A DNA stretch of 64,000 nt. It comes from Bolinopsis microptera (Eukaryota > Ctenophora > Tentaculata > Lobata > Bolinopsidae). The translations under genes were made by a program, and so were the position numbers. Location of the stretch: positions 1,807,692-1,871,691 of the forward strand of contig NC_087076.1 in the NCBI RefSeq assembly GCF_026151205.1, given 5' to 3'. This document shows, one piece after another, positions 45,801-63,673 of the stretch (within the stretch, counting starts at the first letter, position 1; each line of letters begins with the position of its first letter). The notes under the pieces were generated by a model. The model searched no databases, was not told the origin of the DNA, and saw only the letters and a program-made list of their open reading frames with translations.

Positions 45801-48800
45801 GTTATAAAAATCAAATATTTGCGATATTAATCGATGGCTAGCGCTGGTTAGTGCTGCCCAGTGCAATTCGGAATCAGCGTCCGAAAATACATCGATTGAG
45901 GTTGGTTTCAACTGTCGGGGGCCCTTTTAGAACAATCTCGAAGATCGACTGTAGAGTGATTTAGCACGCTCGCTTGACCATTGTTAATGATCTGGCCCGG
46001 CGCGCGCTACTTCGTAGCTCGTGCCGTCGGGCACAACATTTCGAGAAGAAAGCGGCGCGCGCTACTTCGAAGAAATTTAGACGAGTAACATCCGTCAATA
46101 TATTAGCAGACTTTACTCAACGCGCTAAATTCTATTACATATATTATGCGCGGTGCTCTTTTCGATCGTGAATCCTAGTAAGGTCAGGAAACCTTACTGG
46201 ATGCACAAAATGATCATAGTGCAAATAAACTTCGGCTAACTGCTAACTAAGCAGCAGTTTCTTTGCACTATAGTTAACGGGTGATACTCGTAAAATATTT
46301 GTTCCAACTCGGCGCGCGTCCGGCCTGGTAGGTTGTTAACCTACAAGTGCACGTGCGTAAAACAACCCCAGTTACTACGGTTACAATGAAAATTCCTATT
46401 TCTCATCTAATTTGCACGTGGGCGGTCGTACATACATTTTACATTCTCATAAATAATTCTTTAGAATTATAGTAAGATTAGTATAATTTGAATAACCCTC
46501 ATGCTTATTATTAGTAATATTGAAGACTTTATAAATTTTAGGCAATTGCTCAGATCTGTTAGATCATTTCGCTGAATTTTTCGGGATATCAATATGTTAG
46601 ATTGAGTATGAACATAAATAATCGAGGTCGCCAGTAGTATGGAATTTGTAATTGATCCATGTACGACACAGTACTGCGCGCCGAAAGTTGAATATCGCAA
46701 AGTAAATCAAAAATCCTAACATTTCATCTGGATATTACGATCGTCTACATATTAACGTTAAACAGTATGACGGGAGAGTGTTTAACTCATGCTTCTAGCG
46801 TTTGGCTCGCTTTTAAAAGCGTGTAAAATAAATGAGCCACCAGCTGACGAGTATATTCAAGATTTATGATTTTGATACAATGCTGAGCACGAATGTAGCT
46901 GTGTAGCGCAGCAGACGCTGGCTAGCTTGTCTAGCTGTGAATAGGCTGATAGCGGCAGCGATTCTACGCATGTTAGCGAGGCTACGAGCTACGATTATTT
47001 CCGCCAAATAAATAATAATATGATTTTGATTACATGATGCCAGCGAGCCATGATGAGCTAGGATGCACGTGCTGACGCTAGGCTACGCTGTACAGCTAGA
47101 GTATTGCTACGCTGCCAGCACTGCCAGGCTAAGTCTGAACTAAACACAAAATAATGATTGCCTGGCAATTTGCTTACGTATAGCCACGAGCCAGCGCTAG
47201 TTGTCGTATCTTAGCCTATTTGTCGGACATATCGAAATTCATATCTGAAAATTTATCAAAATTGATCTTTGCGCTGCTTAAGTCGCTTGATAGACCTGGC
47301 CAGAGAAGGATACGACTGGAATTGCGACAGTACTAGTGTACTGATCCAGATACGCATAGGTTGTACCGCAATCGCACAGCTAGTTTGACTTTCTAAATAA
47401 GCGACTATAGCAACGCTGGCCATGCGCGCTTAGTTATACGAACTTAAAGTTTGAATTTCTATTGAATTGCAAGTTTCTATATTGTGCGGTTATTGCAAGT
47501 TATATGTTTAACCATATTATTTGTTGTCAGATGGTTGCCATGCTGGTGTATATCTGACTCAACTGTGTCGTGATGGGGTGTGGACCAATGAGGATGTTCC
47601 GGTGTACGTGACCCCGGACGGTAAAGTTTTCATCAGTAGTGTTATCGTCAACCAGCCGGTGTAAGTCTGCTACTTTTGTTAACGGCTCAAAAAGAACTGC
47701 CTAACAATTTTTCTCACATGTCAAAACAAAATGGTTCACCTCCCCACCGGTATCCTGTATTACTATTAACAGTTGTTAGTATTATTCACTTTTATTTATC
47801 TGAAATCTGAAAATGAGATCTCACGGGAATTTGTATTGCAGGTGCTCCAGCGACAGGATTAAGTTTGCTCAACAAGACGATGCGGATGATGTCCACAACA
47901 AACCGGAAGAAGGATCCCTCACATTCTCAGACGGTAAACTCACAGGATGGGTTAAATTCCCTGGACAGAAGGCTGTAAAGATACGCGGAAAACGCTGGGG
48001 TGAGCAACGAATCTTCTCTTAGTTTAGACGTTTTTCTAAAACATGTTCTCTGAAGTCCACAAAACTTATTGATCGGCAAGTTTGCAGACGAATTTTAATA
48101 TGACGTGAGGAAACAAGCGCTCTAATGGATTGCAAAATAACACAATTACAAACTGATTTAATAATGCTTTATTCAATCAGATCCGCGACAGACAGGACAC
48201 TACGTTATCGAAAAGAGGGTGGTGCCGAGGGTGTCAAATGCTGACGCAGAAGGAGAGCGAATGCATGAAGATGATAAGCCATCATCTTGGCAGCTAGTAC
48301 CTCTTGACTTGTCCATCATGCTGGGAGGTGACATATTATATATTATATAATAAATCCAACCTTCAAATTTAAATTTATCGCGATTTGTCTTCGAACAATT
48401 GGGTGAATTTCGTCAGAGCATAAAGAAAAAGCTCACGAAATAGTTCGCTACCTTTCAAGAATGGTTACAAAATTGACAAGATTGGATCATAAGTATAGCA
48501 AATAAGCTGAGATGAAATGCAGAGAAAACGTCGTCTAATCTTAAAGTTAATGAAGGGTTGACCTTTTGATACAATATGACAGTTGCGACTTGCGCTCGTG
48601 ATTGGTTCAATAATATGAGAAGACTGTCAGGCATATGCAGCTTTATGTGACGACATAATTAGATCGACCTGCCTTTCTCCAGGAACATTGTACGTCATTA
48701 AATTCAGTCGAATCCCTTGAAAGCGTGTGATTATAGTAAATATACTATATTATATAGATTAGACGACTTTGTCTTTAGTGACATATTGACTTTGTGAATT

Positions 48801-63673: not shown

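Follow-up and report, generated by a model that had tools for sequence, protein, structure and literature searches.

A gene within a 64,000-nucleotide stretch of the Bolinopsis microptera genome (NC_087076.1, positions 1,807,692 to 1,871,691 of the forward strand; hereafter referred to as the window) was found to encode eight tandem copies of a protein module, which looks like a new sequence family with a known fold, i.e. a streptavidin- or lipocalin-like β-barrel. With a probability of roughly 0.55, these modules make up an array at the N-terminus of a large scaffold or spacer protein, which is probably intracellular and has at least 1668 residues, and in which eight such barrels would be followed by a spacer and a helix.

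The eight-module repeat and its exon chain

An initial annotation had placed an eight-fold tandem repeat of a ~95–145-residue domain at 47531..61865. These positions were shown to correspond, base for base, to the first and last base of a chain of 18 exons. All its introns are GT-AG, the phases agree and 835 codons are read without a stop; codon 1 takes its first base from an upstream exon that was not seen, and this base was assumed. The repeat itself was confirmed, while the interpretation attached to it was supported in part. When each module was compared with a profile of the other seven, all eight were recovered with 22.1–46.9 bits, far above the ≤9.2 bits reached when every module was shuffled 1000 times, in a run that used the first hand cut at the closing boxes and an approximate join for module 4. 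Once the exon borders had been settled, the modules scored 18.1–47.7 bits, whereas 2404 other segments from the six frames of the window, serving as controls, reached ≤7.3 bits. A ninth module was detected neither in the window, where the next best segment had E 2, nor in the 10 kb upstream or about 20 kb downstream, and modules 1, 3 and 5 retrieved this locus alone from the host genome (264.65 Mb, 232 contigs), with E 0.89 or worse elsewhere among the best candidates scored.

From the first to the eighth, the modules comprise 96, 131, 94, 101, 95, 117, 96 and 90 residues (820 in total), a range of 90–131 rather than the length originally given. All are encoded on the + strand. Module 1 (47531..47999; exons 47531–47660 and 47842–47999) closes with VKIRGKRW, and module 2 (48181..49800), the longest, spans exons 48181–48327, 49042–49115 and 49268–49414 and the first 24 bases of 49777–49950, closing with VEIRGRKW. 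Module 3 (49801..51194; the remainder of exon 49777–49950 and exon 51062–51194) ends in EEIRGIRW, and module 4 (51297..59210; exons 51297–51359, 53075–53206 and 59103–59210), which contains a 5.9-kb intron, in VEIRGYKW. Module 5 (59322..59606) is a single exon with a phase-1 intron on each side, and module 6 (59750..60547) is encoded by exons 59750–59890 and 60338–60547. Module 7 (60697..61248; exons 60697–60810 and 60953–61101 and the first 24 bases of 61225–61335) closes with VEVRGSTW, and module 8 (61249..61820; the remainder of 61225–61335, exon 61471–61563 and the start of 61730–61865) with VMRGKRV. The intron within module 4 (53207–59102) carries a minus-strand transposase-like open reading frame (ORF) at 56001–56807, Tc1/mariner-like by eye and with no Pfam match at 0.01, as well as a 281-copy TC microsatellite and several minisatellites.

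The anchors of the modules follow one another in the order first proposed, with differences in detail. The G-x-Y anchor is present in all eight modules, and a Trp does follow its Tyr, at a spacing of 10–13 residues (29 in module 2) instead of ~15. An ITPDG turn and an LxFxDG strand had been regarded as common to all modules; by eye, module 2 has no clear copy of either. The closing box, reported as clear in modules 1–5 and 7, takes the strict form IRGx(K/R)W in modules 1–4 only, with IRGSLW in module 5 and VRGSTW in module 7, and is indeed degenerate in modules 6 (IAGFKF) and 8 (MRGKRV). The Arg of the xRG triplet is retained in seven of the eight boxes, module 6 having Ala at that position.

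Age and duplication history of the modules

Repeat profiles and alignment support the proposed expansion by tandem duplication. As pairwise module identities are 14.4–29.3 %, the copies are considered old, and a fresh expansion by recent duplication was rejected. Module borders 2/3 and 7/8 carry no border intron and show instead a phase-0 intron directly before the closing box. A small module tree paired module 2 with 7 (support 0.81) and module 3 with 6 (support 0.83). Since pairs 2–3 and 7–8 share this intron pattern, and the tree joins module 2 to module 7, a block duplication of the two pairs is suggested; doubt arises, however, because module 3 pairs with module 6 and not with module 8, to which it is only 19.5 % identical. 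The block duplication is suggestive only, the module sequences being too short and too old to decide it.

Sequence relatives

In agreement with the initial annotation, no known family was matched in the libraries searched (Pfam, NCBIfam, PHROGs and PDB sequences). Five window ORFs of the region gave nothing above the Pfam cut-off, and the best Pfam-A families listed had E 0.052 for seven modules searched singly and E 0.029 when the eight were searched as one spliced run; no lipocalin, fatty-acid-binding protein or avidin family was listed in either search. Bactofilin (E 0.029) and TIG (E 0.046), both obtained with the spliced run, were rejected as falling under the Pfam cut-offs. Also rejected were β/γ crystallin (Crystall_3; E 0.052) and the FANCI cap (under the cut-off), each in one of seven modules, xylose isomerase and other NCBIfam matches (one of seven modules each, best E 0.0095) and PHROGs matches (one of seven, best E 0.031).

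A phmmer search of the spliced run against PDB sequences gave no match up to E 10, and a seven-module profile retrieved 371 sequences at E ≤10, the best 60 of which all bear the names of GFPs or of constructs containing GFP. The top GFP match, a construct with two GFP stretches, had a whole-sequence E of 2.1e-4; among three alignments listed, no stretch was better than i-E 11, while in some other entries one stretch passes E 10. Kinship with GFP was judged not significant and was read as noise between barrel sequences. Module 5 had no close relative among viral contigs and prokaryote genomes. The literature yielded no paper on this protein, which is nameless, so that absence from print is not shown thereby.

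Predicted fold of the module

The expectation of a β-rich module was borne out by the predicted structure of module 5. The second model contains nine strand elements, or eight if residues 19–21 and 25–27 are taken as one bent strand (the first model has six), and resembles solved barrels. The proposal of an undescribed domain thus stands for the sequence family, which is unlabelled in the libraries searched, and not for the fold, predicted to be a common eight-stranded up-and-down barrel; the same barrel would be expected in all eight modules.

Several solved structures resemble the module 5 model in shape. Streptavidin and the short avidins (4jnj, 6hdt, 6hds and 7our) form a similar barrel with 7–12 % identity and no Pfam match. 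Avidins function as separate biotin-binding chains, whereas the modules described here are fused eight in a row. The cathepsin C exclusion domain (1k3b, 4cdd), the factor-H-binding-protein barrel (7nru and others) and residues 177–282 of quinohemoprotein amine dehydrogenase (1jmx) are also similar in shape, each at 9–17 % identity and as part of an unrelated protein, while the bacterial cyclic-dinucleotide receptor Cap15 (7n34, 7n35), with 6 % identity, represents a likeness of shape only. Designed dye-binding barrels of 105–110 residues (6czh, 6czi) resemble module 5 as well.

Calycins are described (PMC2954199) as eight-stranded antiparallel barrels with a short 3-10 helix that forms a cap ahead of strand 1, and with a latch in which a first-strand Trp is stacked (cation-π) with a last-strand Arg or Lys. 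In the model of module 5, the first strand carries G-x-Y and the last one the R-G of the closing box; DSSP assigned a three-residue helix (residues 2–4) before strand 1 in the second model and none in the first. Lipocalins and fatty-acid-binding proteins, as members of the calycins, are approached in the G-x-aromatic of strand 1 and the last-strand Arg (7/8), and perhaps in the short N-terminal helix, which is seen in the second model alone (PMC2954199). They are departed from in that all eight modules have Tyr in place of Trp, the conserved Trp lying 10–29 residues further on, and in that the barrel is smaller and shows no sequence match.

These likenesses are also what would be expected of a poly-lipocalin-like calycin string, in which each barrel carries a small hydrophobic ligand, as in polycalin, within the cell, as in fatty-acid-binding proteins. 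We know of no helix tail in polycalin. Such a string would account for the resemblance to avidins, lipocalin-like proteins and the dye-binding designs, and the strand-1 G-x-Y and last-strand Arg would mimic the calycin latch (PMC2954199). It is nevertheless considered unlikely, given the Tyr for Trp substitution throughout, the little cavity room in the six modules of just 90–101 residues and the Pfam listings without a lipocalin or avidin model.

Downstream exons and the charged tail

The chain was shown to continue past 61865, where the phase-1 donor pairs with an acceptor at 62045; beyond this junction, ten more remain in phase up to a stop codon beyond the window end, at 5202–5204 of the sequence into which the gene continues (L006), equivalent to 69010–69012 in window numbering. 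Three of these exons lie within the window on the + strand, all in phase: 62045..62650 (Ser/Pro-rich and disordered-looking by composition), 62870..63279 (Ser/Pro/Ala-rich) and 63583..63673, the last before the gene exits the window. The joined chain has 29 exons, all phase-consistent with canonical splice dinucleotides, and its frame of 1668 codons comprises 820 residues of modules, a 574-residue spacer enriched in Ser, Pro and Thr, which make up 28.6 % of it, and a 274-residue tail (L006:3458-5201), in the same frame as the modules, in which E, R, K or Q make up 55.5 %. A short CCCTAA-type, telomere-like repeat run, internal to the contig, was observed directly 3' of the gene (L006:5890-5980).

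Single α-helices rich in E, R and K are recognized by an excess of i/i+4 opposite-charge pairs and by the lack of a hydrophobic heptad stripe. A 200-residue part of the tail holds 69 such pairs out of 196, compared with a mean of 43.5 and a maximum of 57 in 500 shuffles, and hydrophobic residues occupy 29.8 % of the a/d positions in the best heptad register, against a register mean of 27.0 %. As judged from its residues, the tail shows the signature of a charged single helix, not of a classic coiled coil. No known domain in the tail scored above a cut-off, and for the last 82 residues of the protein no PDB sequence matched at an E-value below 1.1.

The composition of the whole frame bears on where the protein acts. 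The 820 module residues include 11 cysteines, and the most widely shared Cys column of the alignment is common to two modules (3 and 6), which disfavours a disulfide-bonded secreted module. A secreted or cell-surface adhesive array, with barrels that bind extracellular ligands or matrix, would be consistent with the tandem arrangement, with six N-x-S/T sites within the modules and with several of the nearest structural shapes being extracellular or surface barrels. Phase-1 introns, typical of shuffled extracellular animal domains, occur at five of the seven module borders, and the missing 5' exon could encode a signal peptide. Against these features stand the cysteine pattern, the continuation of the frame into a Ser/Pro-rich stretch and a charged tail of single-helix type, and the joined frame itself, in which no transmembrane segment was seen by eye, without a predictor; an adhesive array is accordingly regarded as quite unlikely. 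Of the 'adhesive or scaffold' role initially proposed, the adhesive part is not supported, while the Ser/Pro-rich stretch and the tail lend the protein a scaffold-like look, suggestive of a cytoplasmic location and a scaffold function.

Other features in the window

Three coding-like ORFs of ~200 residues (3238–3870, 6420–7025 and 9735–10349, strand –), ~3 kb apart and very similar by eye, look like a recent tandem duplication; the only copy scanned, 3238–3870, matches a UBA-like domain (PF18039, E 2.5e-7). A receptor-like ORF cluster follows on the same strand (12385–13461, 15556–16242 and 19789–20997), two members of which match 7tm_1 (rhodopsin-type; E 1.4e-12 for 19789–20997 and 2.1e-8), while 12385–13461 has no match at E 0.01. 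The match of 19789–20997 points to an animal as the most likely host. On the + strand, 31255–32877 is an open frame of 541 codons that includes acidic and low-complexity stretches and has no Pfam match at E 0.1, and ORFs 34537–34788 and 36457–36819, ~2 kb apart, have the stretch LEHRLDDTAENLERIVKLRSELADNFQHNS... in common, which suggests the duplication of an exon close to where the upstream gene ends.

Proposed arrangement and its meaning

In the scaffold or spacer protein favoured here, each module would be a self-contained eight-stranded up-and-down β-barrel. The first and last strands of such a barrel pair and thereby close it, and the G-x-Y and IRGxxW motifs should therefore meet at the barrel seam. 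The distances from a closing box to the next G-x-Y are 5, 5, 5, 5, 7, 4 and 5 residues, indicating that the barrels follow one another without free linkers. The eight barrels may thus line up as a fairly stiff string, the last strand of each running into the first strand of the next, followed by the flexible, disordered-looking 574-residue spacer and then by a rigid charged single helix of ~200 residues with a hydrophobic end. The barrels would dock partners (peptides or small ligands) as a multivalent scaffold, and the helix would set a constant spacing between them and any binding partner of the C-terminus.

Several points weigh against this proposal. The fold was predicted for one of the eight modules, from a shallow, hand-selected alignment. 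Multiple barrels per chain are not new as such: polycalin, a lepidopteran multidomain lipocalin listed among the Cry1Ac-binding proteins of the insect gut brush border (PMC4985599), is an animal protein with several calycin-type barrels and a partial precedent. The 5' end of the gene is missing from the chain: exon 1 starts in phase 1, for which reason at least one upstream exon should exist, and codon scoring yielded no convincing candidate, the top-ranked one being a minisatellite frame. Furthermore, the donor after exon 49268–49414 (gttttt) is, by eye, apparently the weakest in the chain. The weak donor, the missing first exon and the repeat-rich 5.9-kb intron would also fit a gene that is expressed yet functionally idle, or a mis-joined model with exons from different transcripts, but this is considered very unlikely in view of the phase consistency and canonical splice dinucleotides of all 29 exons and of the full-length modules, which retain their anchors at 14–29 % identity, read as long-term selection.

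A more specific version of the scaffold or spacer reading is tentatively put forward, in which undescribed minimal calycin-like barrels (~95 residues, with a Tyr–Arg latch) could form an intracellular eight-unit string that, together with a single-helix spacer, might act as a molecular ruler with a binding site in each barrel. Barrel folds of this type are abundant and best known from single ligand carriers. If the proposed arrangement is true, a common barrel fold would have been recast as an in-line string within one protein, with a barrel latch that uses Tyr where calycins have Trp. As the family is apparently unlabelled in the libraries searched, the eight-module profile could, in that case, help to label some of the dark proteome of other animals.
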